DNA from: Gemmobacter caeruleus
GTDB taxonomy: Bacteria > Pseudomonadota > Alphaproteobacteria > Rhodobacterales > Rhodobacteraceae
Assembly: GCF_008271655.1 (NCBI RefSeq)
Contig: NZ_VKKX01000008.1
Span: 1-38,439, forward strand
Direction: 5' to 3'
Length of the DNA stretch: 38,439 bases
The position numbers were made by a program, and so were the translations under genes. The notes beneath the pieces are model-generated. The model was not told the origin of the DNA, did no database searches, and was given only the letters and a program-made list of their open reading frames with translations. Positions within the stretch are counted from its first letter, which is position 1. Every line of letters begins with the position of its first letter. Below, piece by piece: positions 1,740 through 19,897 of this stretch.

Positions 1740-1765
1740 CGACGGGCGCCAGGAGCCACTCTCCC
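1740..1765 (-). promoter_or_regulatory. Conserved leader hairpin upstream of DUF932 gene
   Basis: Read on the minus strand, the 26-nt block begins GGGAGAGTGGCTCC and ends GGCGCCCGTCG, 13 nt before the ATG. It matches the block before the ParB-like gene (18512-18537) at 25 of 26 positions. The first part folds as GGGAG-AGTGG-CTCCT, with a G-U pair where the other copy has G-C. Further upstream both leaders share GTGAGAG and GGTTGAGGG-type motifs at nearly the same spacing. It looks like a cis-acting RNA or protein-binding site; its class is not known to me. Confidence 0.7.
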
Positions 1766-1887
1766 AGCCCTCAACCCGTCAACGGGAAACCTGCACTCCT
1801 CTCACTCTACGAGTCGCGATGGGCGGAAAGCGGACGGTCGGGTGAGCGGTGAGAACATCTTTCAGATGTGCCTACCGCCCCAGAATG

Positions 1888-3000
1888 TTAGGCCGCCGTC
1901 CACGTTCCACCCGCCTCATTCGAACGGACACACGCGCGGATGAAACGCATTCCTGCAAGTCCGTCCTCGGCGGTAGCCAGCGCTCGCGTCGACGCCAAGC
2001 CCTTACCTTCGATCAGATCCGCCGCATCTGCGTATAGAGTTGCGAACGCCTCCAGATAGCCCTCGGGATGGCCGGACGGTATGCGGCTTGGCGTTTGGGT
2101 CAAGCCGTCACCGCGGCGCAGCAGGCGGGTCGTGTCGCCAAGCGGGGTGAATTCGAGCAGATCGGGGTCTTCCTGATCCCATGCCAGCCCCCCCCTTTCG
2201 CCGGCGATGCGGAACCGCAGCGCGTTCTTGGTGCCAGAGGTGATCTGGCTTGCCCAGATCATCCCCTTCGCGCCGCCGTCGAAACGCAAGAGGACTGCCG
2301 CGTTGTCATCCAGTCGCCGTCCCGGCTCGAAGGCGGTGAGGTCGGCAAGAACGGCCTGAACTCCAAGCCCCGAAACAAATGTGGCGAGATTTACGGCATG
2401 CGTTCCGATATCCGCGATGCAGCCGCCCTCGCCCGACAAGCCGGGATCGGTGCGCCAGACGGCCTGTTTCTGCCCGCTCTGTTCCACGGGTCCGGCCAGC
2501 CAGTCCTGCAAGTATTCCACCTGCACGTGACGCACCGCCCCGATTGCCCCTTCGGCGATCATCCGGCGCGCCTCGCGCACCATCGGATAGCCTGTATAGG
2601 TCTGGGTCAGCACGAAGGGCACGGATGTTTCGGCTGCCAGGGCAGCCAGTTCCTCGGCCTCGGGAAGCGTCGCGGTCATCGGCTTGTCGCAGATCACTGC
2701 AATGCCTGCCCGCAGGAAGGCCGTCGCCACCTTGGCATGAAGGTGGTTCGGCGTGACGATCGCCACCGCAGCGATCCCGTCAGGACGGGCTGCCTCGGCC
2801 AAAGCCATCTGCGCGAAATCGGAATAGCTGCGGTCGGGCGCAATGCCGAGATCCGCCGCCGAAGCCGCGGCCCGTGCCGGGTCGGAGGACAACGCCCCCG
2901 CAACCAACTCCCACCGCCCATCCAGCCTTGCGGCCATGCGGTGGACCCCGCCGATGAAGGCCCCTTGTCCTCCGCCGACCATGCCCAGTTTCAGTGTCAT
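1888..3000 (-). CDS. Gfo/Idh/MocA-family sugar dehydrogenase (operon distal)
   Basis: This 370-aa protein is an NAD(P)-dependent oxidoreductase of the Gfo/Idh/MocA family. It has the N-terminal Rossmann glycine-rich start (LGMVGGGQGAFIGGVH), the family motif in the form CDKPM (DKP rather than the commoner EKP) and the C-terminal catalytic segment ADIGTHAVNLA. The ATG at 3000 is chosen because it overlaps the stop of the upstream gene as ATGA, indicating translational coupling; a longer frame to 3267 lies wholly within that gene. It is the last gene of the eight-gene sugar operon. Substrate unknown: probably an oxidisable sugar, cyclitol or glycoside. Confidence 0.82.
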   Translation of the reverse strand: MTLKLGMVGGGQGAFIGGVHRMAARLDGRWELVAGALSSDPARAAASAADLGIAPDRSYSDFAQMALAEAARPDGIAAVAIVTPNHLHAKVATAFLRAGIAVICDKPMTATLPEAEELAALAAETSVPFVLTQTYTGYPMVREARRMIAEGAIGAVRHVQVEYLQDWLAGPVEQSGQKQAVWRTDPGLSGEGGCIADIGTHAVNLATFVSGLGVQAVLADLTAFEPGRRLDDNAAVLLRFDGGAKGMIWASQITSGTKNALRFRIAGERGGLAWDQEDPDLLEFTPLGDTTRLLRRGDGLTQTPSRIPSGHPEGYLEAFATLYADAADLIEGKGLASTRALATAEDGLAGMRFIRACVRSNEAGGTWTAA

Positions 3001-4061
3001 GACCGGATCCCCAGCATCGCGTCCAGCACCGCCTGATCGGCCCTCCCGCCTGCGAAATCGTCGAAGGCCTGCCCCGTCACCTCGATCAGATGACGGGCGA
3101 TAAAGAGCGCACCCTCGGCGGCACCCTGCGCCGGGGATTTCAGGAAGCACTCCCATTCCATCACCGCCCAGCCGCGATAGCCGTGCTGGGTCAGCCGCGT
3201 GAAGACGGCCGCGAAATCCACCTGCCCGTCGCCAAGGCTGCGGAAACGCCCCGCCCGTTCCGCCCAAGGCGAATAGCCGGAATAGACGCCCTGCCGACCA
3301 TCGGGGCGGAACTCGGCGTCTTTGACGTGGAACGCCGAGATACGGTCGTGATAGATGTCGATGAAGGCCAGATAATCCATCGCCTGTAACAGGAAGTGCG
3401 ACGGGTCGTAGTTGATCCTCGCGCGGGGGTGTTCCGCCACGGCGGACAGGAACCTCTCCCAGCTTGCGCCGTCGAACACATCCTCTCCGGGGTGCAGTTC
3501 GAAGCCAATATCGACACCCGCATCGTCATAGGCATCAAGGATGGGGGTCCAGCGGCGGGCAAGTTCGGCGAATGCCGTCTCGACCAGTCCGGCGGGGCGC
3601 TGCGGCCAAGGATAGAGATAGGGGAAGGCCAGCGATCCGGTGAAGCTGACCGTTCCCGAAAGCCCCAGACGCCGCGCCGCCGTTGCGGCCTTGGTCACCT
3701 GATCGACCGCCCATGCCTGCCGTGCGCCGGGATTGCGCCGCACCGTTTCCGGCGCGAAGGCATCGAAGGCCGCGTCATAGGCGGGATTCACCGCGACCAA
3801 CTGTCCTTGCAAGTGCGTGGACAGTTCCGTGATGGCGATGCCCGCTTCGGCGCAAATGCCCACCACCTCGTCAGCATAGGTCTGACTTTCGGCGCAGAGG
3901 TCCAGATCGAACAACCGCCGATCCCAGGACGGGATCTGCACGCCTTTGTAGCCCAGCCCTGCCGCCCAGGCCGTGATCGCGGGCAGGCTGTCGAAGGGTG
4001 CATCATTCCCCGCGAATTGCGCCAGAAAGATGCCCGGACCCTTGATCGCACTGCCCGTCAT
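2997..4061 (-). CDS. TIM-barrel sugar isomerase/epimerase (AP-endonuclease-2 fold)
   Basis: The 354-aa protein has the xylose isomerase-like TIM-barrel signature of the sugar phosphate isomerase/epimerase family. Likely metal ligands are visible in ELHPGE, INYDPSHF, FHVKD and VMEWE. It is longer than the second TIM-barrel protein at 9348-10169 (273 aa), so they are not recent duplicates. It overlaps the neighbouring genes by 4 nt (ATGA) at both ends, so it is tightly coupled within the operon. In related pathways such proteins isomerise, dehydrate or cleave the keto-sugar made by a Gfo/Idh dehydrogenase. The exact reaction here is not determinable. Confidence 0.8.
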   Translation of the reverse strand: MTGSAIKGPGIFLAQFAGNDAPFDSLPAITAWAAGLGYKGVQIPSWDRRLFDLDLCAESQTYADEVVGICAEAGIAITELSTHLQGQLVAVNPAYDAAFDAFAPETVRRNPGARQAWAVDQVTKAATAARRLGLSGTVSFTGSLAFPYLYPWPQRPAGLVETAFAELARRWTPILDAYDDAGVDIGFELHPGEDVFDGASWERFLSAVAEHPRARINYDPSHFLLQAMDYLAFIDIYHDRISAFHVKDAEFRPDGRQGVYSGYSPWAERAGRFRSLGDGQVDFAAVFTRLTQHGYRGWAVMEWECFLKSPAQGAAEGALFIARHLIEVTGQAFDDFAGGRADQAVLDAMLGIRS

Positions 4062-4357
4062 GCCGCCCTCTCCGACAGCATGGTCAGGGGCCGGATCTCC
4101 ACCGGACAGGCCAGCAGACGGTCAAGCTGCGAAACCAGCGGTTGCAGATGCGGCATCGCCAGATGCGCGTCCAGCGCCGCGCGGTCGGTCCAGTTCTCGT
4201 AGAAGACAAAGACGCAAGGATCGGCAGCATCGACGTGGAAGTCGTAGTTGATGCAACCCGCCTCGGCCCGCGTCGGCGCCACTAGCGCCATCAGCAGCGA
4301 TGCCAGTTCCTCGCGCGTTTCCGTGCGGGCGGTGAGGGTTCCGATGATCGTATACAT
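4058..4357 (-). CDS. ABM-domain putative quinol monooxygenase (YgiN-like)
   Basis: The 99-aa protein has the size and pattern of the antibiotic biosynthesis monooxygenase (ABM) family: a ferredoxin-like fold with MYTIIGTLTARTETREELASL at the N-terminus (given here only by its first part, MYTIIGTLTAR), then INYDFHVD and FVFYENWTDRAALDAHL. Members act as cofactor-free monooxygenases or small-molecule binding proteins. It begins 2 nt after the permease stop and overlaps the next gene by ATGA. Its role in a sugar operon is unclear; it could protect against or rearrange a reactive intermediate, but that is inference. Confidence 0.8.
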   Translation of the reverse strand: MYTIIGTLTARTETREELASLLMALVAPTRAEAGCINYDFHVDAADPCVFVFYENWTDRAALDAHLAMPHLQPLVSQLDRLLACPVEIRPLTMLSERAA

Positions 4358-4359
4358 GG

Positions 4360-5316
4360 TCAGCCCCGCTTCTGGCTCAAGGCAACGGCAAGGATGATGA
4401 TCGCGCCCTTGGCGATCAGCTGCTGGCTGAACTCCAGCCCCATCAGGATCAGCCCGTTGTTGATCATCCCGATCATCAACGCGCCGACGATGGTGCCGAT
4501 GACCGTCCCCTTGCCGCCGAACAGGCTCGTCCCGCCAAGGACGGCCGCGGCGATGACCGACAACTCATCCCCTTCGCCAAGCTGGAAGCGGCCCGATTGC
4601 AGACGGCCAGCGTAAAGCATCCCGGCCAGAGCGGCAGCGCAAGAGGACAGGACCAGCACCTTGAACTTGATGCTGCGCGTGTCGATGCCGGAGTAGCGTG
4701 CGGCCATTTCGCCCCCGCCCGTCGCCAGAACCTTGCGGCCAAAGCCGGACCGGCGCAGCGCGACATGACCGACGCCCGCGATTACCGCCATCCAGAACAT
4801 CAGGACCGGGATAGGGCCGACCGAGCCGCCCCCGAAGATCCAGGAATAACCGGGGGACAGGATCGGCACCGCCGCCGTGTCGGAAATCCACATGGCCACG
4901 CCCTTGGCGATGCCCATCATGGCAAGGGTCGTCAGGAAGGACGGAATGCCGATCCGCGTCGTGAGCCAGCCGTTGAACACGCCCACGGCCAGCCCTGTCG
5001 CCAACCCGGCAAGGACACCGCCAACAGGCCCGGCGACGGCAATCGCCATGGCAACCGTCACCGTGGTCAGCCCCGCCACCGCGCCCACCGACAGATCGAT
5101 CTCGCCGGCCGACAGCACGAAGGTCATGGCCACCGCCATCACCGCGATCATCGCGGTCTGCCGCACGATGTTCAGCAGGTTGTTCGGGTTCAGGAACCCC
5201 TTGTCGTTCAGCGTCAGCGCAAAGACGACAAAGATCACCACGAAGCCGATATAGATGATGTTCTGCCGCCAATTGGCGAAGAATGCCCCGGCGGGGGCGG
5301 TTGCTGCCTTAGCCAT
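4360..5316 (-). CDS. Sugar ABC transporter permease (RbsC/BPD_transp_2 type)
   Basis: This 318-aa integral membrane protein belongs to the ribose/galactose-type permease family that forms the inner-membrane channel of sugar ABC importers. It has about eight to ten hydrophobic segments, the family segment VLSAGEIDLSVGAVAGL near residue 65, and a C-terminal part with AAAVLGGTSLFGGKGTVIGT. The start overlaps the end of the ATPase gene by 8 nt. With the ATPase (5309-6880) and periplasmic binding protein (8171-9292) it completes one importer. Only one permease gene is present, as expected for a homodimeric channel. Confidence 0.93.
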   Translation of the reverse strand: MAKAATAPAGAFFANWRQNIIYIGFVVIFVVFALTLNDKGFLNPNNLLNIVRQTAMIAVMAVAMTFVLSAGEIDLSVGAVAGLTTVTVAMAIAVAGPVGGVLAGLATGLAVGVFNGWLTTRIGIPSFLTTLAMMGIAKGVAMWISDTAAVPILSPGYSWIFGGGSVGPIPVLMFWMAVIAGVGHVALRRSGFGRKVLATGGGEMAARYSGIDTRSIKFKVLVLSSCAAALAGMLYAGRLQSGRFQLGEGDELSVIAAAVLGGTSLFGGKGTVIGTIVGALMIGMINNGLILMGLEFSQQLIAKGAIIILAVALSQKRG

Positions 5317-6880
5317 GGCTGGCCTCCTTTACGGTCAGGGCTTTCTGGATTTCCACCTGAAGGCGGCGCTCGGCCGCTTGCAGGGCATGTTCGGGGTCGC
5401 GCTCCTCCGGATCGTCCAGATCGGCGCGGTCCAGCATCTGATGCGCGCGGCCATCCGCCATCACGAGGATGCGGTCGCAGGCCGTCAGCAGTTCCGACAG
5501 TTCCGAAGAGATGACGATGACGGCCTTGCCAGACTGCGCGAGGTCGCGCACCAGCCGGATGATTTCGGCCTTGGACCCGATATCGATTCCTGCCGTCGGT
5601 TCATCGAGGATCAGGATTTCCGGCTCCGTCGCCAGCCACTTGCCGATCACCACCTTCTGCTGGTTGCCGCCCGACAGCGCGGACACCGCATGGTCGCGGC
5701 TTGCCGTCTTGATCGACAGTCGGGCGATCATGTCCTCGGCGATGTCCCGCACGCGGGCACGGTCCACGAACCCCTTCGGCGCGATGCGCCCGATCACCGA
5801 CATCACCATATTGTCGGCTACGCTATGGGCCGGGATGATGCCCTGCGTCGCCCGCGCCTCCGGCACCAGGGCGATGCCATGGGCCACGGCATCGGCGGGG
5901 CGGCGGATCGCCACTTTCGCGCCCTTGATGTGGATCTCGCCCGAAACGGCAGGTTCGATACCTGCAATCACGCGCGCCAGGGCGGACCGACCGGAGCCGA
6001 GCAGTCCCGCAAGTCCCAGCACCTCGCCCCGATGCAGCGCGAAGCTGACGTTTTCCGGTTTGTGCGGGCCGGTCACCTGCGCAAGGTCCAGCAGAACCTC
6101 GCCCCGCGACACGTCACCCCGCGCCACATCGGCCAGCCCCTTGGATTTCTTGCCGACGATATGTTCGATCATCACGTCGATGGGCAGATCGGCCAGCGGC
6201 GCGGTGATGACATGGCGGCCATCCCGCAGGATCGTGGCGCGGTCCGAGATGCGGGCGATTTCGTCCATGCGGTGGCTGACATAGATGATCGCCACGCCCT
6301 TGGCCTTGAGTTGCCGCAGGAAGACGAAGAGTCGTTCAACATCCGACACCGAAAGTGCGGTCGAGGGTTCGTCGAGGATCAGGACGCGGGCATCCTGACT
6401 GATCGCCTTCGCAATCTCGGTCAGCTGCTTTTGACCCGCCCCCAGATCGCCCACCAGCGCAGTGGGATCGACCTCGACCTGCAACATGTCGAAAATCGCC
6501 TGCGCCCGCCGGACGGAATCGGCATCGTCGATCATCCCGCGCGCATCGCGGGCTTCGCGGGTCAGGAAGATGTTCTGCGCCACAGTCAGCGTGGGGATCA
6601 GCGACATTTCCTGAAAGTTCATGGCGATCCCCGCCGCCCGCGCCGCTTCGGGCGAGTGGGCGGCCAGTTTCTGGCCACCAACCTCGATCTCGCCCTCCTC
6701 CGGCACGTGAACACCGTTCAGAACCTTGAGGATGGTGGATTTCCCCGCCCCGTTGCCGCCAAGCAGGGCGTGGACTTCACCGGCAAACACCTCGAAATCC
6801 ACACCATCCAGCGCGCGAATGCCGCCGAAGGATTTGGAAATCCCCGTCATCCGCACGGCAACCGGGGCGGGGGCGGTCAT
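5309..6880 (-). CDS. Sugar ABC transporter ATPase (RbsA/MglA type, two ABC domains)
   Basis: The 523-aa protein carries two ATP-binding cassettes in tandem, as in RbsA and MglA. The first has Walker A GGNGAGKST near residue 40, a divergent signature region GAGQKQLTEIAKA and Walker B VLILDEPS. The second has LLGSGRSALAR, the LSGGNQQKVV signature and Walker B ILILDEPT, typical of the RbsA C-terminal half. The ATG at 6880 overlaps the stop of the upstream dehydrogenase (ATGA) and is preferred over an in-frame ATG five codons earlier. It energises import of the operon's substrate. Confidence 0.93.
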   Translation of the reverse strand: MTAPAPVAVRMTGISKSFGGIRALDGVDFEVFAGEVHALLGGNGAGKSTILKVLNGVHVPEEGEIEVGGQKLAAHSPEAARAAGIAMNFQEMSLIPTLTVAQNIFLTREARDARGMIDDADSVRRAQAIFDMLQVEVDPTALVGDLGAGQKQLTEIAKAISQDARVLILDEPSTALSVSDVERLFVFLRQLKAKGVAIIYVSHRMDEIARISDRATILRDGRHVITAPLADLPIDVMIEHIVGKKSKGLADVARGDVSRGEVLLDLAQVTGPHKPENVSFALHRGEVLGLAGLLGSGRSALARVIAGIEPAVSGEIHIKGAKVAIRRPADAVAHGIALVPEARATQGIIPAHSVADNMVMSVIGRIAPKGFVDRARVRDIAEDMIARLSIKTASRDHAVSALSGGNQQKVVIGKWLATEPEILILDEPTAGIDIGSKAEIIRLVRDLAQSGKAVIVISSELSELLTACDRILVMADGRAHQMLDRADLDDPEERDPEHALQAAERRLQVEIQKALTVKEASHG

Positions 6881-8043
6881 TCCACCCGCTCCCACTTGCC
6901 GGTTTCACCCGACCGCAGCAGGGCATCGGCCACCAGTTCCGTCAGCAGACCGTCCTCGAAATTCGGGCTGGGCTGCTTGCCGCTGGCAATCGCGCTGAAC
7001 AGGTCGAAGCATTCGACGATCTTCGTTTCCGAATAGCCGATGCCCAGACCGGGGATCGGCCACAGACCGCCGCCATAGGGATGGGCTGGACCAGTGTAGA
7101 CCGTGCGGAAGCCGCGTGCATCGGCGGGGTCGTCGGCGAACATCACCTGCAACTCGTCACGGCGTTCGTAGTTGAAGTGGATCGACCCCTTCGTCCCGTG
7201 GATTTCCAGCGTGATGAAGTTGTTCCGACCCCATGCGTTGCGCGTGGCCTCCAGGCTGCCGATGGCCCCGTTGCCGAAGCGCAGCATCGACACCACCTCG
7301 TCATCCACATCCACCGGAGCACGTTCGGCATCAGCGGATTTCTCCGACGCACCCAGCTTGTCCACCCCGCCCTGCTGGATGGGGCGCGTCGTGACATAGG
7401 TCTTGGTCATGGCGATCACCTCGGCAATGGGACCGACGAGGTAATGCGCAAGGTCCACCACATGGGTCCCGATATCCCCCACCGTGCCCGACCCCGCGAT
7501 CTTCTTCTGAAAGCGCCAGGACAGCGGCCCGTTCTCATCCGCCGACCAGTCCTGAAGGTAGGTGCCGCGGAAGTTCAGGATGCGGCCGATGCGGCCTTCC
7601 TCGATATATTTCTTGGCCAGCGCCACGGCGGGCGTGCGGCGGTAGTTGAAGGCCACCATGTGGATGATGCCTGCGGCCTTCGCGGCTTCGGTCATCGCGC
7701 GGGCCTCTTCCACGGTGCGGGCGAGGGGCTTTTCGCAGATGATGTGCTTGCCCGCCTTGGCCGCCGCAATGGCAATCTCGGCATGGACATTGTTCGGCGT
7801 GCAGATGTCGACCACGTCGATATCGGGCCGCGCGACGACGGCGCGCCAGTCGCTCGACGCCTCGTCGAACCCGAAACGGCGACGGGCTTCCTCGGCCGCC
7901 CCGTCGGTGACATCGACGACGACCTTGCGGTGCGGGATTGCCGGGGCGGGCCAGAAGAACATGGGCATCGAGGCATAGGCCATGGCGTGCGCCTTGCCCA
8001 TGAACCCGCCGCCGATCATGGCAACGTTCATCACTTTGGTCAT
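6877..8043 (-). CDS. Gfo/Idh/MocA-family sugar dehydrogenase (operon proximal)
   Basis: The 388-aa NAD(P)-dependent oxidoreductase has an N-terminal Rossmann motif (AMIGGGFMGKAHAMAY), the canonical EKP motif in IICEKPLART and the catalytic GDIGTHVVDLAHY segment. It is distinct from the distal dehydrogenase (1888-3000), which has DKP and a shorter C-terminal region. The ATG at 8043 has GGAG about 8 nt upstream. It lies directly after the binding protein and hairpin, and directly before the ATPase with an ATGA overlap. Two non-identical Gfo/Idh enzymes in one operon suggest two oxidation steps or an oxidation-reduction pair. Confidence 0.88.
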   Translation of the reverse strand: MTKVMNVAMIGGGFMGKAHAMAYASMPMFFWPAPAIPHRKVVVDVTDGAAEEARRRFGFDEASSDWRAVVARPDIDVVDICTPNNVHAEIAIAAAKAGKHIICEKPLARTVEEARAMTEAAKAAGIIHMVAFNYRRTPAVALAKKYIEEGRIGRILNFRGTYLQDWSADENGPLSWRFQKKIAGSGTVGDIGTHVVDLAHYLVGPIAEVIAMTKTYVTTRPIQQGGVDKLGASEKSADAERAPVDVDDEVVSMLRFGNGAIGSLEATRNAWGRNNFITLEIHGTKGSIHFNYERRDELQVMFADDPADARGFRTVYTGPAHPYGGGLWPIPGLGIGYSETKIVECFDLFSAIASGKQPSPNFEDGLLTELVADALLRSGETGKWERVE

Positions 8044-8135
8044 CGTCAGTCTCCGGTGCTGTGCGGGACGGGTTGTTGAGAAAGGGCCGGACCTTCACTG
8101 GCAGGGAGCAATTCCCCCGGCAAAGGCCCGGCAGG

Positions 8136-8163
8136 CGCGCGGGGTGATAGGGCACCCCGCGCG
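8136..8163 (-). terminator. Strong GC hairpin after the binding-protein gene
   Basis: An 11-bp perfect inverted repeat (CGCGCGGGGTG at 8136-8146 and its complement at 8153-8163, 6-nt loop) begins 7 nt beyond the stop codon of the periplasmic binding-protein gene. No T-run follows on the minus strand. In sugar ABC operons such a hairpin after the binding-protein gene typically protects the upstream mRNA and partly attenuates the rest, giving more binding protein than permease. The position is seen; that effect is inferred. Confidence 0.6.
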
Positions 8164-8170
8164 GCATCGC

Positions 8171-9292: not shown

Positions 9293-9347
9293 AACTTCTT
9301 CCTCCCAGAGAAGTGTCGGGGTTGCCCCCGTGTGGTGGGCAGGGCGT

Positions 9348-10169: not shown

Positions 10170-10253
10170 TGGTATCCCCTCCCCGTGCCGCAGGCGGTGC
10201 GGGATGGCCCGCCTTGCCTGCTTTCCTGCCGGCCTCCTCTGACCGTGGCACTT

Positions 10254-10282
10254 TTGTTAGGCCTCAATTCCGCTTTGGTCAA
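10254..10282 (-). promoter_or_regulatory. Candidate promoter of the sugar operon
   Basis: On the minus strand TTGACC (10277-10282) is followed after 17 nt by TAACAA (10254-10259), a good sigma-70-like pair oriented toward the first operon gene starting at 10169. It lies in an AT-rich stretch of the 223-bp region between two divergent transcription units, where a ROK-regulated promoter is expected. Confidence 0.45.
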
Positions 10283-10293
10283 TAATAAATCTG

Positions 10294-10330
10294 CTTATGT
10301 CAGACTACTTCTGCATTTTTACAGCATAAG
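10294..10330. promoter_or_regulatory. Possible ROK operator: spaced inverted CTTATG/CATAAG
   Basis: CTTATG at 10294-10299 and CATAAG at 10325-10330 form an inverted pair about three helical turns apart, in the AT-rich divergent region and just upstream of the candidate operon promoter. ROK regulators bind AT-rich inverted sites, so this is a plausible but short operator candidate. The region has no other obvious palindrome. Confidence 0.3.
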
Positions 10331-10392
10331 TTTTTTCTTGAACGGCAGAAGGCCGCCCTTTATCCCTGCTGAAACCCTGCAAGGACGCGATT

Positions 10393-11763: not shown

Positions 11764-12770
11764 CGATTTCCGGCCTCGGCCCGCATGGTGAACGCGCCGC
11801 CCCGCCCGAACGGGTCATCCTGCTGCCCGACGACCGCACCGCCGCTAAGGCCGCCGGATGGCGCGTTGCTGTGGTCCTGCACACCTTGGAAAGCGACTGG
11901 GCCAAGCAGCAACTTGCCGGCATGATGGGCATCTTCGGCGATTGCGGCGCGGCGGTGATCGACGTTGTGGATTGCGCCTTTTCCCCCGACATGCAGGTGT
12001 CCGAACTTGACCGGCTGATCTCTCAAAGCCCCGACGCAATCATTTCGCTGCCCGTGGCTAACGAACAGGTTGCGGCCGCGCATCGCCGGGTGTCCGAGGC
12101 GGGGATAAAGCTGGTCCTGCTCGACAACGCCCCGACCGGCCTGTTGCCGGGCAAGGACTATACGGCGCTGGTGTCGTCGGACAATTTCGGTCTGGGCAAG
12201 ATCGCGGCAAAGGGACTTTCGGCGCATGTTCCCGACGGTGCGAAGGTCGGCGTCCTCGGCTTCGCCGCCGACTTCTTCGCCACGAACGAGCGCGAGATCG
12301 CCTTTACCAAATGGCTTCTGGTAAACCGCCCCGACATCATCCCGCGCATCCACCGCTTCGCACGGATCGAGGACGCTGCCGCAGCCGCGGATGATCTTCT
12401 GTCGGCGAACCCCGATCTGGCCGGGCTATTCGTCGTGTGGGATACGCCAGCCCTTGCCGCAGCCACCCGCCTTGCAGAACGCGGCGCGACGATGCCCGTG
12501 GCAACCGTGGACCTCGGAGAGGCCGCTGCCATCGCCCTCGCACAAGGCGACTCTTTCTGCTGCATCGCCGCCCAACAACCTTTCCTGCAAGGGATCGCAG
12601 CCGCGCAGACCGTGATCCTGTGCCTTCTCGGCCGCCCCGTTCCCGCCTGGATCGCCCTACCCGGCATTGGCGTCACACGGGACAACGTGGTCGAAAGTTT
12701 CCAGACGATCTGGCGGCAACCGGCCCCGCGCGAAGTGCTCCGCGTGCTGGGCCTGTCACGCGGCAAATGA
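11760..12770 (+). CDS. Cytosolic paralogue of the sugar-binding protein
   Basis: The 336-aa protein resembles the periplasmic binding protein at 8171-9292 through most of its length, sharing DN-PTG--PG-DY, ADFF-T--R, VWD-PA and TVDLGE motifs. Its N-terminus (MTISGLGPHGERAAPPERV) has no hydrophobic signal and no helix-turn-helix, so it should stay in the cytoplasm. The ATG at 11760 overlaps the ROK stop (ATGA), so both are made together. Inference: it binds the imported sugar or a metabolite and works with the ROK protein as a sensor, or buffers the ligand. The function is not established. An alternative is a binding protein that lost its signal. Confidence 0.75.
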   Translation: MTISGLGPHGERAAPPERVILLPDDRTAAKAAGWRVAVVLHTLESDWAKQQLAGMMGIFGDCGAAVIDVVDCAFSPDMQVSELDRLISQSPDAIISLPVANEQVAAAHRRVSEAGIKLVLLDNAPTGLLPGKDYTALVSSDNFGLGKIAAKGLSAHVPDGAKVGVLGFAADFFATNEREIAFTKWLLVNRPDIIPRIHRFARIEDAAAAADDLLSANPDLAGLFVVWDTPALAAATRLAERGATMPVATVDLGEAAAIALAQGDSFCCIAAQQPFLQGIAAAQTVILCLLGRPVPAWIALPGIGVTRDNVVESFQTIWRQPAPREVLRVLGLSRGK

Positions 12771-12803
12771 AGGCCGGCATGGAAGCGATGCGACAGGCTC
12801 ACC

Positions 12804-12821
12804 GGCGGATTTGAATCCGCC
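12804..12821 (+). terminator. Hairpin downstream of the ROK/binding-protein pair
   Basis: GGCGGAT (12804-12810) and ATCCGCC (12815-12821) form a 7-bp stem with a TTGA loop, 34 nt after the stop at 12770. Only weak T content follows, so this may be a weak terminator for the plus-strand regulatory pair. Confidence 0.4.
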
Positions 12822-12932
12822 AAAGTTCCATTACGACTGTCCATCGACATATCGCCGCGACCGTCCGCTTTGGGCCGAAACTGTCGATCTTGTCCTTTGC
12901 CCCGGCAACCCGCGTACTAACGGGGCCTGAAA

Positions 12933-12954
12933 CCCGGCGGGTTGCCCCGCCGGG
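12933..12954 (-). terminator. Rho-independent terminator of ssb
   Basis: CCCGGCGGG (12933-12941) and CCCGCCGGG (12946-12954) form a perfect 9-bp stem with a 4-nt loop, followed on the minus strand by TTTC. It lies 22 nt beyond the ssb stop codon, in the right orientation to end ssb transcription. Confidence 0.65.
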
Positions 12955-12976
12955 CCTTAGGGAGACCCCGTTCTTT

Positions 12977-13381
12977 TCAGAACGGGATCTCGTCGTCGCG
13001 GTCGACCAGCTCGGGGTTTTCATTCTCGGTCGCTTTCGGGCGGCTGAGGAAGTCGACCTTCTCCGCGATGATCTCGCAGCCGTAGCGGTCAACGCCGGTT
13101 GCGTCGGTCCACTTTGTGTAGTGGATGCGGCCGTGGACCATGACCTTCATGCCCTTTTCGCAGTGCTCTGCGACAGTCTTGCCGAGACCGTTGAAGCAGG
13201 TGATGCGGTGCCATTCGGTGTCCATGACCCGGTAGCCGTTTTCGTCGCGGATCGCGCGACCTTCCGAAAGGCGGGGGCGCGAGGTGGCGAGGGTGAAGTT
13301 GGTGATCTTGGTGCCGCTCTGGGTGGCGCGGACTTCGGGCTTCTGACCGATGTTGCCGGCGAGGATGACGATGTTCTGCAT
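12977..13381 (-). CDS. ssb: Single-stranded DNA-binding protein
   Basis: The 134-aa protein has the SSB OB-fold pattern: MQNIVILAGNIGQKPEVRAT at the start, then TEWHRITCFNGLGKTVAEH and GRIHYTKWTD. It ends with the acidic tip DDEIPF, which in SSBs recruits replication and repair partners. It is shorter than chromosomal alphaproteobacterial SSBs, which have a long disordered linker, and fits a plasmid-borne copy. The ATG at 13381 has AGGAG about 6 nt upstream; a longer frame to 13426 is not needed. It probably protects single strands during plasmid replication or conjugative transfer. Confidence 0.93.
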   Translation of the reverse strand: MQNIVILAGNIGQKPEVRATQSGTKITNFTLATSRPRLSEGRAIRDENGYRVMDTEWHRITCFNGLGKTVAEHCEKGMKVMVHGRIHYTKWTDATGVDRYGCEIIAEKVDFLSRPKATENENPELVDRDDEIPF

Positions 13382-13821
13382 GTTAAGCTCCTGTGTTTCC
13401 TGTCCCCGGGACCGTCCCTTCGACAAGACCCGAAAGAAGCCTGTCGGGTGAGGCGTGCACGGCTGGGCCAGCAGACCAGACGGAAACCCCCAAAGGTCCG
13501 GGGTGGAGCGGGCAGGTGCCGCGTTTCCAAAGAAACGCTAGCCAACACGGCCCAGACTGACGCGGGGTTGCGCGCATGAGGCCGAACAGGCTTAGGGGAT
13601 TGTCAGTCGAAGGGATGGCACCGGGGACAGGAGTGATCGGAGGCACTTGCAGAACATGTCTTTCCTCGCCCTGATAAGACGGTAAGCCCGAAGTCCTTAT
13701 CCCCATAGCGGCGGATCACCTCAGAGCCCCTTTCTTGCCATTCGCGCCTAAGCCCGATCGGAGTTGCGAGCCCGCGCCGTGACGGCTATCCCAAGGGCAT
13801 CATTTTGGACACGAGGCACCC
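13382..13821. other. 440-bp region between ssb and the H-NS-like gene, with structured ssb leader
   Basis: No convincing gene is present. On the minus strand the ssb-proximal 200 nt are GC-rich and contain several possible hairpins. The clearest is GCGTTTC-CAAA-GAAACGC at 13521-13538 (perfect 7-bp stem, tetraloop). A G/C-rich GGGAC...GTCCC fold lies closer to ssb. The minus-strand frame up to 13706 has no domain similarity that I recognise and no good initiation signal. The plus-strand part near 13810 contains only the ribosome-binding site of the H-NS-like gene (GAGG). Confidence 0.5.
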
Positions 13822-14142
13822 ATGGCTGAATTCGACGTTGAGACACTGTCGCTCAAAGAGCTCAAGAGCCTGCAGAAGGATCTGGCCAAGGCCATTTCCT
13901 CATTTGAGGACAGGCAGAAAAGCGATGCCCGCAGCAAGCTCGAGATCATTGCCAAAGAGATGGGCTATTCCCTGGCCGACCTGATTGGCACCGAGGTGAA
14001 ACCCACCCGTGCGCCCGCCGCCGCGAAATACCGCCATCCAGAAAACGCGGCCCTCACCTGGTCAGGCCGGGGGCGCAAGCCGCTGTGGTTTGTCGCGGCC
14101 CTAGAAGCAGGCAAATCGCCCGAGGACATGGCAGTCAACTGA
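13822..14142 (+). CDS. H-NS/HvrA-family nucleoid-associated regulator
   Basis: The 106-aa protein has the H-NS family layout: an N-terminal coiled-coil oligomerisation part (about residues 8-45, with LKELKSLQKDLAKAISSFED) and a C-terminal DNA-binding motif TWSGRGRKPLWF near residue 80. This C-terminal motif is typical of the alphaproteobacterial HvrA/Spb group and proteobacterial H-NS-like proteins. The ATG at 13822 has a GAGG site 7 nt upstream. Plasmid-encoded H-NS-like proteins often silence transferred DNA and limit the plasmid's burden on the host, which suits a replicon carrying a large cargo operon. Confidence 0.9.
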   Translation: MAEFDVETLSLKELKSLQKDLAKAISSFEDRQKSDARSKLEIIAKEMGYSLADLIGTEVKPTRAPAAAKYRHPENAALTWSGRGRKPLWFVAALEAGKSPEDMAVN

Positions 14143-14195
14143 CCGCCTATGCGTGACCCAGCAGTGGGGCGTTCGTGTTATAGAAATCCACATTT

Positions 14196-14223
14196 GTGAA
14201 CATGTCGCCTCGGTCATGTTTAC
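14196..14223. repeat. Inverted repeat GTGAACATG / CATGTTTAC
   Basis: A 9-bp inverted repeat with one mismatch (G-U in RNA) and a 10-nt spacer lies 54 bp after the H-NS-like gene. It could be that gene's 3' hairpin or a DNA-binding site. No T-run follows. Confidence 0.4.
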
Positions 14224-14361
14224 AGAGCGCAGTTCTCCCAACATGAGAAAGTCCCCTGCCCTATCTGCTTCAGTTTCTTGCCACCGCCTTCCTTGGATTT
14301 CGGAATGCCGACAAGACGTCGGCGCAGTGGGCCTGTCAGGCTCTTGAGGGCAGACAGGCGA

Positions 14362-14398
14362 AAGGCCCGGAGGCGCGATAGCGCCGAGCCCGGGCCTT
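14362..14398 (-). terminator. Long bipartite hairpin terminator of the 54-aa protein gene
   Basis: The outer arms AAGGCCCGG (14362-14370) and CCGGGCCTT (14390-14398) enclose an inner stem GGCGC-GATA-GCGCC (14372-14385). It lies 18 nt beyond the stop of the small minus-strand gene and is followed on that strand by a TTTC-type run. It could also act on plus-strand transcripts. Confidence 0.65.
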
Positions 14399-14415
14399 CT
14401 TAACGAGCGTGGGCA

Positions 14416-14580
14416 TTACGCCCACGGGTCGATCTCAGCCAGCACCTGAACCTCATCGCCGTCGATTTCATCGGCGGGGACGGCACCAAAGGTTCCATCC
14501 CCTGCCTGAAAGACCACGATCGAAACCATGAGCGTGGCGGCGAGAGAGGCGGCGAAGGCGTGTGCATCTTTGCGGGACAT
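14416..14580 (-). CDS. 54-aa putative membrane microprotein
   Basis: The short frame starts MSRKDAHAF, has a hydrophobic helix (about residues 9-25, with AASLAATLMVSIVVF) and a very acidic C-terminus (ADEIDGDEVQVLAEIDPWA). It has all the marks of a real gene: an ATG with AGGAG about 8 nt upstream and a strong terminator hairpin 18 nt past the stop. The charge pattern suggests an N-in membrane anchor or an uncleaved signal, with the acidic tail outside. I do not recognise a family. A decayed inverted copy of its second half lies at 14874-14935. Confidence 0.65.
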   Translation of the reverse strand: MSRKDAHAFAASLAATLMVSIVVFQAGDGTFGAVPADEIDGDEVQVLAEIDPWA

Positions 14581-15030
14581 CTGTTTTGGCTCCTGCTGGG
14601 AGGCGAGGGACCATCCCCCGCGCTGACAGGAACCCGCAGGCCCAAGGACGGTCTGACATCACCGGGTGCGTTCGGGCTTGCCCCGAATCCGGCCGGCGGC
14701 ACGGGCTCGCCCCGTAGTCCGAGCCCTTGTGGCTTGATCTCGAAGACGGGCTTTGGGCCAAGGAAGGGACTGGCAAGCGGGGGATGGTACTTTGACACAA
14801 GGAGCCGAATTGTCCCGCTGATGCTCACCCCGCCAGCCTTGCAGACATGCTCTTAGTTAACCGAGGCCTTACTGGGGATGGAGCCTTTGGTGCCCCGCGC
14901 AGATGCACGGGAAAGGTTGGTGCTGGATGAGAGGCCCGCGTGCGGCGGGCCCCCTTGGTCTCTGAGAAGGCTCGGGCGGCGATGTCCGCCTTCTGTGCCC
15001 TCTACCGTGCGTTTTGAAATTGAGAGTTGG
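14581..15030. other. 450-bp region between the microprotein gene and parE
   Basis: No intact gene was found. The part 14581-14830 is GC-rich and would form the long leader of the microprotein gene on the minus strand, with possible hairpins (for example GGGCTCG...CGAGCCC near 14703-14727). The several overlapping frames there are proline- and arginine-rich, without family features or start signals. The part 14840-14940 contains the gene relic listed separately. Nothing else was seen up to parE. Confidence 0.45.
14874..14935 (+). pseudogene. Decayed inverted copy of the microprotein gene (3' half)
   Basis: The plus-strand segment 14874-14894 matches the minus strand of the microprotein gene (14482-14502) at 20 of 21 positions; both encode GDG-FGA. 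Similarity continues with small gaps, through GGTT-GTGCTGG-TGAGA, to about 14935, although the frame is lost. A 25-codon frame from an ATG at 14847 lacks a ribosome-binding site. It is best read as a remnant of an inverted duplication. Confidence 0.4.
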
Positions 15031-15369
15031 CTATTCGCCGCTGTCGCCTTCGCCCAGGGCGGCAAGCCGAGCAGGCAGGTCCATCCTGACATGCAGGAAG
15101 TCGACAACGATCATCCGGTCTGGCGCTGCGATAAAGACCACATAGTGCTGCCCGGACCGGGCATAGCGCAGGTTTTCGGGCAGCGACGGGTCAACCAGTC
15201 GACGGCAGTCTTTGGAAGGTGCGGCACCGTCTGCCAGTGCCTGGCACTTGTCGATGAGGTCTTCAGCATAAGCGTCCGCCTGCCGCTTGCCAAAAGTCTC
15301 GACTGTCCAGACCGCAATATCTTTCAGTGCGGCTTCTGCCTGCCGCGTCAACACCCATGGTTTTGGCAT
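15031..15369 (-). CDS. parE: ParE-family toxin (RelE/ParE superfamily)
   Basis: The 112-aa basic protein has the ParE layout: MPKPWVLTRQAEAALKDI at the N-terminus, TFGKRQADAYAEDL in the middle and the conserved RYARSGQHYVVFIAAPDRMIVVDFLH region (seen as LRYARSGQHYVVF and VVDFLHVRMDL). ParE toxins poison DNA gyrase. Its start overlaps the parD stop by one base (TGATG), the usual antitoxin-first coupling. On a plasmid it serves as a post-segregational stability system. Confidence 0.9.
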   Translation of the reverse strand: MPKPWVLTRQAEAALKDIAVWTVETFGKRQADAYAEDLIDKCQALADGAAPSKDCRRLVDPSLPENLRYARSGQHYVVFIAAPDRMIVVDFLHVRMDLPARLAALGEGDSGE

Positions 15370-15629
15370 CAGGATGCGGACTTTTGCGCCGTTGCAAAGA
15401 CCCGCCGGATTGCTTCTTCACCGGGTCCGCGCGCGAAAGCGCCTTCTCGGGCCTCTAGCACGCCACGTGTTAGCCGTGAGCGCAGGTCACGGAACTCGGC
15501 CTCTTCGCGCTCCAGCAAGCGCAAACCGGCCCGCAACGCCTCGGAGGCGTTCTGGTAGCGGCCCGAGGCAACCAAATCATCGATCAGCTTTGATTGGGGT
15601 TCGGTCAGCACAACGTTGCGGGTGGCCAT
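15369..15629 (-). CDS. parD: ParD-family antitoxin
   Basis: The 86-aa protein has an N-terminal ribbon-helix-helix region (MATRNVVLTEPQSKLIDDLV) followed by the ParD motif GRYQNASEALRAGLRLLE and a flexible C-terminal part that would bind ParE. The ATG at 15629 is supported by GGAG about 9 nt upstream; an open frame continues to 16010 but has no ParD-like sequence. It neutralises ParE and, with it, should repress the operon through the palindrome at 15647-15665. Confidence 0.92.
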   Translation of the reverse strand: MATRNVVLTEPQSKLIDDLVASGRYQNASEALRAGLRLLEREEAEFRDLRSRLTRGVLEAREGAFARGPGEEAIRRVFATAQKSAS

Positions 15630-15646
15630 GCAGTGATCTCCGTTTG

Positions 15647-15665
15647 ATTGGCAATATATGCCAAT
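15647..15665 (-). promoter_or_regulatory. parDE operator palindrome
   Basis: ATTGGCA and TGCCAAT are perfect 7-bp arms around ATATA, 18 nt upstream of the parD start. Ribbon-helix-helix antitoxins bind such palindromes to autoregulate; the AT-rich centre may be part of the promoter. Confidence 0.65.
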
Positions 15666-15735
15666 GGCGCCTGTCTGTCGAGAGAGGCTCGGCCAAACCG
15701 CAAGACGGCAGTGGCCGAGCCAGAAATTAATCCCC

Positions 15736-16206
15736 TCAGGCGGCGATACCCGCCTCCCCTGCCCTATCGCGCTCATTGCCGACGATCTGCAGCCTCGCAT
15801 TGCGATAGCCCTCCCTCGCGATCCAGAGCTCGGCCGCGGTAATGGATTCCGCCAGATGCAGCAGCTCGGTGTTGCCACCAAAGTCCAGAAGAACACGCAC
15901 TTGTCCAGCTTTGGGTTCCTCAGCCACCTCGAAGACCAGCCGACTGTCAGCCGAATGGCTGCGCATGATGGTGACAAGGATGACCCCCTCTGAGGAGAAG
16001 TTGCCCTCATGCAGCGTGAAGGACGCCGGAGCCGTCCAGGTTGGATAAGGCCGCGGCGGTTCTTTCTTCACCAGGCGGCCAACACCGTTGGACCTTTCCC
16101 ATGCCGCCAGCTTCTTGGTGAAGCGTGCGGGCGGTTTGGGACTGCCGTCGGTGTAACGAATAAGCGCGCCCAAGGGCGCTGTGTCGATTATTGTGGTTGC
16201 AGACAT
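15736..16206 (-). CDS. Conserved-looking plasmid protein of unknown function
   Basis: This 156-aa soluble protein starts MSATTIIDTAPLGALIRYTDG and has a basic N-terminal half (PPARFTKKLAAWE, KKEPPRPYPTW) and a more acidic C-terminal half (VFEVAEEPKAGQ, LDFGGNTELLHLAES). It has no signal peptide, membrane helix or recognised motif. The ATG at 16206 follows an AGGATGAGGA purine stretch. It sits between the ParB-like gene and parDE, all on the minus strand, so it is probably a plasmid backbone gene. I cannot assign a function. Confidence 0.65.
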   Translation of the reverse strand: MSATTIIDTAPLGALIRYTDGSPKPPARFTKKLAAWERSNGVGRLVKKEPPRPYPTWTAPASFTLHEGNFSSEGVILVTIMRSHSADSRLVFEVAEEPKAGQVRVLLDFGGNTELLHLAESITAAELWIAREGYRNARLQIVGNERDRAGEAGIAA

Positions 16207-16272
16207 GATTCCTCATCCTGAATGCGAGCTTTCGCACTCATCATATTGATATTGTTGTATTTCGTAGTTATT

Positions 16273-16294
16273 GAGGGCGAGTTTCCCCGCCCTC
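16273..16294 (-). terminator. Hairpin downstream of the ParB-like gene
   Basis: GAGGGCG (16273-16279) and CGCCCTC (16288-16294) form a perfect 7-bp stem with an 8-nt loop, 12 nt beyond the stop of the ParB-like gene. No strong T-run follows on the minus strand, so termination may be partial. Confidence 0.5.
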
Positions 16295-16305
16295 GGGGGC
16301 TCAGA

Positions 16306-18498
16306 TCACTCCGCAGCCATCATCGCGGTGCTTTCCACAGGCAGATCGGCCATCAGGAAGGCGGGCAAGTCGATCTCAGCGTCAATTTCAGCAGCGCCCA
16401 AGGGTTCTTCGTTCAAAGCCCCCTGCCCTTCTGCTGCGTCATCCCCGTCCAGAGCGGCAAGATCACTACGCCGCAGAACCTCCGGCAACCAGCCGCTGCC
16501 CTTGAGCAAGCGCTCGGCTTCCGTCGCCATCTCGCCCTTCTTCAGATGGTCGAGCAGCTGTGCGGTGCCCTCCCCCTTCGCCTCACGCACAGCTTCAAGG
16601 ATACGCGCCTTGGGAACACGGTTCAGGTAATTGTCCGGTGTCGGCTCCCAGCCTGCCGCTACCATATCAAGATCGACAGCTTCAGCCACGATCTCAGACT
16701 GCGCCATGCGGCGGACCAACCCACTGGCCGAGATGCCCGCCCCATAGGGGTTCACCTTCTCATGCAGAGCATTAATCCCGAAGCTCAGGCAATGCGCCAG
16801 CAGAGACAGACGGCTGGCCTGATCGAGGGCCGAGAGATAGTCCCAAAGCACGGCATCGTCGCCAAGCGGCAGATCGGCCTCCCAGGCAGCATGACGATCG
16901 TCCACCGCCTTGGCCACCGGACTATCCTTCAGATCGGGGGCCTGTGCTGACATGTAGACGGGGCGCACAGATGCCTCCAAGCAACTGCCCGAAGCCCCGG
17001 AACTGCGGAAGGTGTCATTGACCAGCTTCATCAGCAGAAGGGTCAGGGCAACGTCAGGCGAACGCCCAATCGCCTCCCGCAAGGCGAGGGTGCGATGTGC
17101 GGTCAGCTCCATCACCAGGCGCTCCGGCAAAGGCTTCAACGCGCCATCGTCCTCATCGTCTGGCAGACCGGCACTGATCGGCTGGCCCCCGGAAGTGATG
17201 ATGGTGGTCGCAGACGAACCAGAGGGAAGCTGATAAGCCGAGACACCATCATCGGCCCCCTGCCCTTCCGCACCCAGTTCATCGCCAAAGTTGGCCACGG
17301 TCTCTTCGCGAGGCTCATCCTCCGGCCGGACATAGCCGCGATGGGCAGCCAGGTTGCCATCCCGATCCAGCGTTACGAATACGCCGGCACGACCAACCTC
17401 GGCCGCATCAAAATTCAGCGGGCGCCGCTCGAAGGCTTCCATGGCAGCTTCCAGCTCGCCGAGCCGGGCGTCGATCTCTTCGGGGTATTCGTCCTGACCA
17501 GAGTATTCCTCTTCCAGTGCGCGATACTCGGCGAGCAGCTTGGCGTGCTCTGCAGCTTCATCAGCGCTCAGCGGTGAAGGATCGCCAACAAGACGCCGCA
17601 GACCGTGACTGTAGCCGTAAGGCAGATCGGTTGACACCTCGATCCACTTCCAACCCTCAGCGGCGATTGCCTGGGCCTCGGCTTGCAGCTTGTCCGCGAC
17701 CAAACGGTCGAGCAGGGCAGGGTCCTCCAACCAGCCGCCATCATCGCCTTGGAAGAGATCACGCAAGACAACGCCACCCGCAGCATCATAGACATCAACA
17801 CCGACAAACACTGCGCGCCGATCGGAGGCCCGCACAGAGGTCTCAGTCAACATGCGCCGGATGGAATAGGGCTCCTTGTTCCAGGAGTTCTTCACCGCAT
17901 CCCAGACCTGCACCTGACGCGCGTGATCGGGGTTCACCGTGAAGGCAATCAGCTGTTCCAGCGTCATGCCATCCTCGGCGTAGACCTCGAGCAGGGCAGG
18001 GGCCACGGACGCGAGTTTCAACCGCTGTTTCACGATCTGCGGCGTCACAAAGAAGGCCGCCGCGATCGCCTCCTCACCCTGACCCTTATCGCGCAAAGCA
18101 ACAAAGGCGCGGAACTGATCGAGCGGGTGCAACGCAACGCGCTGCATGTTTTCAGCCAGGGAATCGTCCTCGGCCAGAATATCTGATGTCACATCACGCA
18201 ACACACAAGGCACAGGCGCCGTCTTTGCCAAACGCTTCTGCTTTACCAGCAGCGACAGCGCCTGAAAGCGTCGACCGCCAGCCGGGATCTCGAACTTGCC
18301 GGTCTCGACGCCATCGGCATCTAATACAGGCCGCACGCTGAGGCCTTGCAACAACCCACGGCGAGCGATGTCCTCGGCCAACTCTTCTACCGACACACCG
18401 GCCTTGATGCGCCGGACGTTGGACTGGCTCAGCACCAGCTTATCAAAGGGGATGTCCCGTGAGGACGACAGGGTGATCTTCTGGGCAGCTTGGGCCAT
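16306..18498 (-). CDS. Large ParB/Spo0J-family plasmid protein
   Basis: The 730-aa protein starts with a ParB nuclease-like domain (residues about 15-130, with SQSNVRRI, EIPAGGRRFQAL and DDSLAENMQRVALHPLDQFRAF, given here in parts). A KorB-like helix-turn-helix region follows (IAAAFFVTPQIVKQRLKLA), then a long C-terminal extension rich in acidic residues. It is twice the length of partition ParB proteins. The family occurs on plasmids of Rhodobacteraceae and rhizobia beside, but separate from, RepB, and its role is not well defined. The ATG at 18498 is preceded by GGAGAA. The leader carries the same hairpin block as the DUF932 gene. Confidence 0.85.
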   Translation of the reverse strand: MAQAAQKITLSSSRDIPFDKLVLSQSNVRRIKAGVSVEELAEDIARRGLLQGLSVRPVLDADGVETGKFEIPAGGRRFQALSLLVKQKRLAKTAPVPCVLRDVTSDILAEDDSLAENMQRVALHPLDQFRAFVALRDKGQGEEAIAAAFFVTPQIVKQRLKLASVAPALLEVYAEDGMTLEQLIAFTVNPDHARQVQVWDAVKNSWNKEPYSIRRMLTETSVRASDRRAVFVGVDVYDAAGGVVLRDLFQGDDGGWLEDPALLDRLVADKLQAEAQAIAAEGWKWIEVSTDLPYGYSHGLRRLVGDPSPLSADEAAEHAKLLAEYRALEEEYSGQDEYPEEIDARLGELEAAMEAFERRPLNFDAAEVGRAGVFVTLDRDGNLAAHRGYVRPEDEPREETVANFGDELGAEGQGADDGVSAYQLPSGSSATTIITSGGQPISAGLPDDEDDGALKPLPERLVMELTAHRTLALREAIGRSPDVALTLLLMKLVNDTFRSSGASGSCLEASVRPVYMSAQAPDLKDSPVAKAVDDRHAAWEADLPLGDDAVLWDYLSALDQASRLSLLAHCLSFGINALHEKVNPYGAGISASGLVRRMAQSEIVAEAVDLDMVAAGWEPTPDNYLNRVPKARILEAVREAKGEGTAQLLDHLKKGEMATEAERLLKGSGWLPEVLRRSDLAALDGDDAAEGQGALNEEPLGAAEIDAEIDLPAFLMADLPVESTAMMAAE

Positions 18499-18511
18499 CA
18501 GGTTTTCTCCA

Positions 18512-18537
18512 CGACGGGCGCCGGGAGCCACTCTCCC
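18512..18537 (-). promoter_or_regulatory. Conserved leader hairpin upstream of the ParB-like gene
   Basis: On the minus strand this block begins GGGAGAGTGGCTCCC, which folds as a perfect 5-bp stem with an AGTGG loop, and continues GGCGCCCGTCG. It ends 13 nt before the ATG, exactly as in the DUF932 leader, and matches that copy at 25 of 26 positions, whereas the coding regions are unrelated. The one difference (C for T) keeps pairing in the stem. Confidence 0.7.
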
Positions 18538-18640
18538 GATCTCACTTCCCGCCACCCTCAAACCAACCATTCTCTCACTTTCGTACTGGATATAGGTGCT
18601 AACGACAGACCGGCAGGGCGGCGCGTTTCAGTTGGATGAT

Positions 18641-19819: not shown

Positions 19820-19897
19820 CTGTTTTCAGACAGCAAAAGGATACCGGTCACCGAAATCGGTGTTGCAGTGATTCGATTTTTTGGGTACCAATAGATT

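Follow-up and report, generated by a model that had tools for sequence, protein, structure and literature searches.

A structured leader RNA element shared by putative plasmid-establishment genes in alphaproteobacteria

Introduction

In plasmids of the Bacillus pLS20 family, near-identical sequences of 420–750 bp, termed EGeRS1, are positioned directly upstream of the ribosome binding sites of several establishment operons, including that of ardC, and have been used to define an establishment regulon; they are proposed to block readthrough and to be without a regular promoter (PMC8708921). Frpo/ssi elements are reported to precede anti-restriction and SSB genes in several copies in the leading regions of plasmids (PMC11541004). 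Here we report on an element found in a stretch of 38,439 nucleotides of Gemmobacter caeruleus DNA (NZ_VKKX01000008.1; hereafter the window), which represents an entire contig of the source genome and carries repABC genes. A sequence-only reading of the window had drawn attention to a nearly identical 26-nt hairpin in front of two plasmid genes, encoding a DUF932-type and a ParB-like protein, and had proposed a common cis-acting RNA or regulator binding site. The present analysis indicates that the hairpin belongs to a larger element of ca. 83 nt, which appears to act as a structured 5′ leader, one for each cistron, ahead of the genes of a putative establishment (anti-restriction) module of plasmids and integrative and conjugative elements (ICEs) in alphaproteobacteria.

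Architecture of the leader and its two copies in the window

The two 26-nt blocks (positions 1740–1765 and 18512–18537) are located on the minus strand, which is the coding strand of both genes, agree in 25 of 26 nt and are each separated by a 13-nt spacer from the start codon (ATGs at 1726 and 18498), as originally noticed. The single substitution is compatible with the stem, forming a G·U pair in the DUF932 leader and a G-C pair in the ParB leader. While the hairpin is real, it does not constitute the whole element and is merely the inner part of a two-helix structure. According to the alignment across genomes, the latter consists, in 5′ to 3′ order, of the segment AGAGNNAGAG, ca. 14–17 variable bases, the 5′ strand of an outer helix P1 (GUGACGGG), an internal loop of ca. 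9–10 bases, an inner helix P2 of six and frequently seven pairs with the loop AGWGG, 3–5 bases, the P1 3′ strand CCCGUCRY, the sequence GGAG and the ATG. P1 thus encloses P2 and stops at the Shine-Dalgarno (SD) sequence GGAG, while the unpaired AGAGNNAGAG and the AGWGG loop are invariant. Of 252 copies with an assigned start, 238 have a distance of 5–7 nt between the model end, two bases beyond GGAG, and the ATG. The conserved length is ca. 83 nt; upstream of AGAG the information content drops to about 0.05–0.15 bit per position, the contrast at AGAG itself being inflated by the anchoring of this alignment on AGAG.

In the window, where all of the following features lie on the minus strand, the leader of the DUF932 gene extends over positions 1733–1815 (74.8 bits with model R2). 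It is composed of a 5′ purine tract (AGAGTGAGAG, 1799–1808), the P1 5′ strand (TTGACGGG, 1775–1782), the P2 strands TGGGAG (1761–1766) and CTCCTG (1750–1755) enclosing the loop AGTGG (1756–1760), and the P1 3′ strand (CCCGTCGC, 1739–1746), with seven of the eight P1 pairs formed; the SD-like GGAG (1734–1737) follows one base past P1 and precedes the gene for 399 amino acids (527–1726). The leader of the ParB-like gene (18505–18588; 80.7 bits with model R2) contains the corresponding purine tract (AAAGTGAGAG, 18572–18581), P1 strands (GTGGCGGG, 18548–18555, and CCCGTCGT, 18511–18518; eight pairs, three of them wobble), P2 strands CGGGAG (18533–18538) and CTCCCG (18522–18527) and loop AGTGG (18528–18532); here, GGAG (18507–18510) follows P1 immediately, and the gene encodes 730 amino acids with a ParB_N domain (16306–18498). 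The two purine tracts correspond to the upstream motifs correctly recognized as common to both leaders. The GG(C/A)GGG-like portion of these motifs is the 5′ strand of the outer stem, which the sequence-only reading had overlooked.

The protein products are unrelated, as had been claimed, one matching ParB_N (PF02195, E 8.7e-7) and the other being a DUF932-type protein. The Pfam DUF932 match of the latter is below threshold (E 0.0011, 19.2 bits; cut-off 23), and RefSeq gives the name DUF932 to a 99.7% identical plasmid relative. Proteins encoded by a Gemmobacter aquarius plasmid are 100% (ParB-like) and 99.7% (DUF932) identical to those of the window.

Covariation and folding of the sense RNA

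A total of 258 distinct element copies were collected, which remained from 274 rows after removal of two chance matches (2 of 66 matches of one search) and of copies identical in both element and protein. Among 25 close sequences covariation was not significant, as 81 of 500 shuffles matched the number of doubly changed pairs, and it became convincing with 48 more divergent copies. The final covariation set comprised 112 of 255 usable copies, each below 82% identity. Aligned with MAFFT without structural information, 96.7% of their 1547 pair cells pair, compared with at most 51.7% for slid partners, and both sides change in 12 of the 14 pairs. The 101 doubly changed cells face 29.0 ± 3.7 in shuffles, and none of 500 shuffles came that high, although such tests are inflated by the relatedness of the sequences. 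RNAalifold independently recovers the two helices P1 and P2. Moreover, the pair cells contain 190 G·U versus 28 A·C combinations (87 versus 22 without the two weak outermost pairs), and this tolerance of G·U on the sense strand indicates that the mRNA rather than the template strand is the folding molecule. Formation of P1 and P2 in the sense RNA is supported by these comparisons.

Folding predictions were carried out on leaders that passed text filters (87 for the P1 analysis; 99 and 208 for two analyses of alternative hairpins described below). P1 is part of the predicted minimum free energy (MFE) structure in 86 of 87 leaders folded from the P1 start through the SD sequence, with predicted mean P1 probabilities of 0.88, 0.82 and 0.89 for the ParB, ArdC and DUF932 leaders, respectively.

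Occurrence in genomes and plasmids

Of 337 genomes sampled from the class of the window, 22 gave a match to model R1; model R2 matched in 30 of 349 genomes from the phylum, all 30 belonging to this class, in a sample for which the share of genomes outside the class is not shown. With the covariance-model search proposed in the sequence-only reading, the element is found ahead of DUF932, ParB-like and related genes of many families within the alphaproteobacteria; compensatory changes are abundant and the distance from the start codon hardly varies, both of which had been named there as support. At least 120 stretches in GTDB contigs contain an exact pattern of the element. Based on the record titles we take the carriers to be alphaproteobacteria (Rhodobacterales, Hyphomicrobiales, Sphingomonadales, Caulobacterales, Rhodospirillales and relatives, Hyphomonas, Maricaulis), the exceptions by label being a metagenome-assembled genome of Gammaproteobacteria (L174), three records of Proteobacteria (L114, L151, L201) and one Bacterium (L130). 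The element was detected on three IMG/VR contigs, phage records yielded no match to it, and 177 plasmid records in PLSDB contain a sequence resembling the ParB leader, 82 of these plasmids being typed as conjugative. A simple pattern with up to two mismatches matched in 81 of 394 genomes, a tally that is weak on its own, given that ca. 47 genomes also contained a match to the backward-read control.

On Thioclava pLX01, on Celeribacter pP73C, which has the same backbone, and on Methylocystis pSS37A-Re-3, the leader-bearing genes are located 5′ of the mobC/relaxase or DUF3363 gene on the same strand, and one cluster on Sphingopyxis pMC4 is likewise located 5′ of such a gene on its strand. Provided that oriT is situated immediately 5′ of the mob/relaxase genes, these four of five plasmids would fit a leading region with the transferred strand as template, which is suggestive only. 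The 404-kb plasmid pMC4 of Sphingopyxis indica (L288, L289, L088) carries eight leaders in three clusters on both strands (DUF2958-ParB, DUF932-305-aa protein-ParB and ArdC-ParB-hypothetical), which might reflect the accumulation of three establishment modules.

Genes behind the leader

Assignment of the downstream genes by blastp against seeds revealed ParB-like proteins (ca. 710 aa) behind 127 of the 258 copies, ArdC behind 48, DUF932 behind 43 and a family of ca. 182 aa behind 19. A family of ca. 125 aa and RadC occur twice each, and DUF2958, a 128-aa and a 305-aa protein once each, while 14 copies have no assigned gene, several of them through a missed start or a contig end. In terms of Pfam families, ArdC corresponds to ArdcN (PF08401) plus MPTase-PolyVal (PF18818), L137 to RadC (PF04002) and DUF2958 to PF11171; the ca. 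182-aa family matches no Pfam family above cut-off, and one member is named RadC by RefSeq. The prevailing gene orders are ArdC followed by ParB (30 times), DUF932 by ParB (25 times) and ParB by the ca. 182-aa family (11 times), and proteins annotated as SSB, strawberry-notch-like, toprim and DUF2493 are found among the neighbours.

An ArdC N-terminal domain with intact leader is fused in frame with C-terminal sequence of TrbE, the conjugation ATPase (L039:491-1495), probably a rearranged gene, and a DUF932-like N-terminus with leader continues into an AraC-type HTH domain (L051:314-1495). In L276 (18903-18983; 55.5 bits) an IS256-type transposase gene begins ca. 95 nt after the leader and separates it from a hypothetical gene. 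The leader-bearing 305-aa protein (L088:13330-14244) has no Pfam hit; its start presumably resembles PAPS-reductase-like proteins. Sub-threshold matches of 19–20 bits are found directly before DUF6878 genes (L276:20916-21009, L089:17409-17481), where AGAGTCAGAG and GAGAGAGAGC are retained and the outer stem differs in its letters, its pairing being judged by eye; they possibly represent a diverged member of the leader family.

One leader per cistron

Loci with at least two copies, mostly extending over no more than 8 kb, have all copies on one strand (78 of 78). Distances to the preceding stop codon could be measured for 59 of 87 consecutive leader-bearing pairs, the measurement being confined to pairs up to 600 nt apart whose upstream open reading frame (ORF) was complete. 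The element begins within 98 nt of the preceding stop in 47 of these 59 pairs, overlapping it in two, and at 297–591 nt in the remaining 12. The shared strand and the closeness to the preceding stop are consistent with a leader for each cistron rather than with a promoter. There is little room for a promoter ahead of the leader, although promoters may reside inside the preceding genes, and scans for a single promoter type revealed no sigma-70-like site near either copy of the window.

In the window, the DUF932 leader begins 72 nt past the stop codon of an ORF for an unrelated oxidoreductase, and the ParB leader 52 nt past that of repC; the replicon genes repC, repB and repA (18641–22222, minus strand) immediately precede the ParB-like gene. 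Palindromes located a short distance ahead of the ParB leader (window 18657–18674, AGTTGGCCATGGCCAACT; also present in L007, L029, L272 and L276) differ among plasmids, often occur in two copies and look like repABC partition (parS) sites.

Orthologous loci

Absence of the block from orthologous loci, which the sequence-only reading had named as evidence against its proposal, was mostly not observed for DUF932 orthologs and for ParB-like orthologs of at least 54% identity, although some DUF932 genes lack the block. The survey covered 190 genomes of the class, several of which had supplied training sequences for the model, so that it does not represent an independent test. The element is present at six of seven places for DUF932 orthologs, at 16 of 23 for ParB-like orthologs (14 of 14 at 54% identity or more, two of nine below) and at seven of 28 for ArdC orthologs (seven of seven at 70% identity or more, none of 21 below). 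The DUF932 genes of Sinorhizobium meliloti pSymA and Agrobacterium pAtCFBP6626c are without the element, and an Agrobacterium ParB fragment has it; a search of the leaderless relatives for Rfam alternatives gave nothing credible.

On contig C40 of genome G494 (L217, L231), DUF932 and ParB-like genes without the leader have a different upstream sequence in common, which is identical over ca. 80 nt and includes GATCCCCCTCCGCCCC and a GTGCAGCGCAGCGCTGCGC hairpin; a common leader for these two genes has thus arisen in more than one form. Motifs of the type GATCCCCC(T/A)CCG, similar to those of G494, precede some distant ArdC genes (L251, L252).

Mechanism and alternative explanations

Structure and gene association of the element are well supported; its function, a trans-acting factor and the timing of its action are what we infer. 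The proposal of a common cis-acting RNA gains support from the covariation, the fixed spacing and the unrelated module genes behind the leader, and we consider it very probable that the element acts at the RNA level. As the best reading we suggest that it is probably a cis-acting leader RNA which operates where translation of the genes in a plasmid-establishment (anti-restriction) regulon begins. Translation initiation would rather be expected to be the step affected, and the activity is quite likely timed to establishment. In this scenario, formation of P1 would leave the SD sequence and the ATG free and keep the ribosome site open, while AGAGNNAGAG and the AGWGG loop might constitute the contact site for a trans-acting factor, either a protein or a small RNA. 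Such a factor would set the translation of all module genes together, probably around the entry of the plasmid into the recipient. ArdC of plasmid R388 is reported to be required in the recipient cell (PMC7213743).

Several observations weigh against this proposal. Folded singly with their flanks, neither of the two window leaders has P1/P2 as its MFE structure, and their folding z-scores are just −1.69 and −0.99. Addition of 12 nt of the ORF lowers the number of leaders with P1 in the MFE structure to 71 of 87. Since 189 of the 258 copies originate from stretches retrieved by a pattern that fixes TGACGGG, AGAGWGG and CCCGTC, P1 may be more constant in the collection than in nature; P2, which was not constrained, varies most. 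The position relative to the relaxase gene was viewed in just five plasmids, and on that of G. aquarius the ParB leader fits, whereas DUF932 lies 3′ of the relaxase-like DUF3363 gene.

A more far-reaching version, in which the leader belongs to a hitherto undescribed class of cis-regulatory RNAs and switches the translation of an entire plasmid-establishment regulon, is put forward tentatively and appears doubtful at present. The P1/P2 structure would correspond to one state with free SD and AUG; in the other state, the P1 3′ strand (GUCRYGG) would pair across the SD sequence with CCAUGAC or CCGCG-AUG, and the state would be set by a factor that is either encountered upon entry or produced by the plasmid after its establishment. 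Anti-restriction proteins would then be made in a burst and subsequently shut off. An alternative hairpin of this kind, P3, formed between GUCRYGG, which comprises the P1 3′ strand and the initial SD bases, and either CCAUGAC or the CCGCG preceding the AUG, is a perfect hairpin of 7–8 bp in many ArdC and DUF932 leaders, and across all genes its energies beat those of permutations, the real mean being reached in none of 200 and none of 300. However, also to be counted among the adverse findings, P3 shows no covariation inside gene families, where 226 of 300 permutations equal or surpass the folding of the real pairs. In the main families, the predicted stability of P1 is the higher one by about 5–7 kcal/mol on average. 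P3, being favoured between but not within gene families, is retained merely as a possibility.

The same folding data may be read in terms of a constitutive translation or stability element, in which the hairpin opens the ribosome site and shields the 5′ end, with neither factor nor switching. P1 as the dominant predicted fold, which leaves SD and ATG free, and the lack of an alternative fold that covaries inside families agree with this explanation. A mere opener, however, requires neither an invariant unpaired AGAGNNAGAG and AGWGG loop nor a sequence common to unrelated genes across many families, and we regard this explanation as unlikely.

A single-stranded-DNA promoter of the Frpo/ssi kind, transcribing the incoming transferred strand, would act on the same sort of genes and would conform to their position 5′ of the relaxase gene on its strand in four of the five plasmids. 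It is nevertheless very unlikely, as a hairpin of the template strand predicts the reverse of the observed excess of G·U over A·C in the sense-RNA pairing, and as the helices with a total of ca. 14 bp are too short for a −35 plus a −10 region in the established promoter geometry. The lack of a sigma-70-like site in the scans described above and the location of the element on the SD sequence, in some copies overlapping the preceding stop codon, point in the same direction.

Still less probable is an operator or promoter in double-stranded DNA bound by a plasmid transcription factor; the high conservation of AGAGNNAGAG and the inverted-repeat-like core would suit it, but the stem letters vary freely while maintaining pairing, G·U included, whereas an operator would conserve letters, and the offset from the ATG is fixed with no conserved region upstream. 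Chance likeness or a recent local duplication in this plasmid, suggested by the 96% identity of the 26-nt block between the two genes, is practically negligible: the block, at up to three mismatches, matches exactly twice in the window and never in 100 dinucleotide shuffles, and duplication, the second outcome that the sequence-only reading had named against its proposal, is excluded by the leader identities. Over the 59-nt core, the identity between the two leaders of the window is only 71%, whereas each has its nearest relative in front of the same gene elsewhere (ParB leader 98% to L021, DUF932 leader 97% to L085); different-gene leaders inside one locus average 71% identity, and none of 84 pairs reaches 90%. 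Two further copies are present in the same genome on contig C55, with none in the backward-read control.

The proposed leader RNA bears on the timing of anti-restriction gene expression after the entry of plasmids outside the enterobacteria and makes a mechanism at the level of translation, as opposed to one based on promoters, accessible to direct tests. As a compact RNA tag it would allow the establishment genes in alphaproteobacterial plasmids and ICEs to be listed, including DUF932, DUF2958 and the ca. 182-aa family.

Comparison with known systems

Rfam 15 yielded no gathering-level match in the window, and nothing at the leaders reached a gathering score in searches with E up to 10. The radC RNA motif (RF01754) is a cis-regulatory RNA of Proteobacteria preceding radC and other DNA-handling or anti-restriction genes. 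Its model of 149 positions has another structure and does not match the leaders (E up to 10; 20 loci including the window copies). In 61 genomes, a single sub-threshold radC RNA match was obtained (L034, 31.4 bits; cut-off 40), which has a different fold and is located on a chromosome contig away from leader genes. An earlier description of this RNA element shared by plasmid-establishment genes was not found in the literature searched, which represents only part of the published record and includes PMC2864571, PMC6429828, PMC8632094, PMC11541004, PMC8708921 and PMC5512222.

Like Frpo/ssi, the leader is a structured, repeated element preceding anti-restriction genes of incoming plasmids; however, Frpo/ssi are described as folded template-strand DNA holding the −35 and −10 regions (PMC11541004), whereas the leader appears to be selected as sense RNA beside the SD sequence. 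With EGeRS1 it shares the position directly upstream of the ribosome binding site of several establishment genes including ardC, but it measures ca. 83 nt instead of 420–750 bp and belongs to alphaproteobacteria instead of Bacillus, the likeness being drawn from the published description of EGeRS1. EGeRS1 and Frpo/ssi are the nearest known systems in function, and the radC RNA of Rfam is the nearest RNA by gene context.

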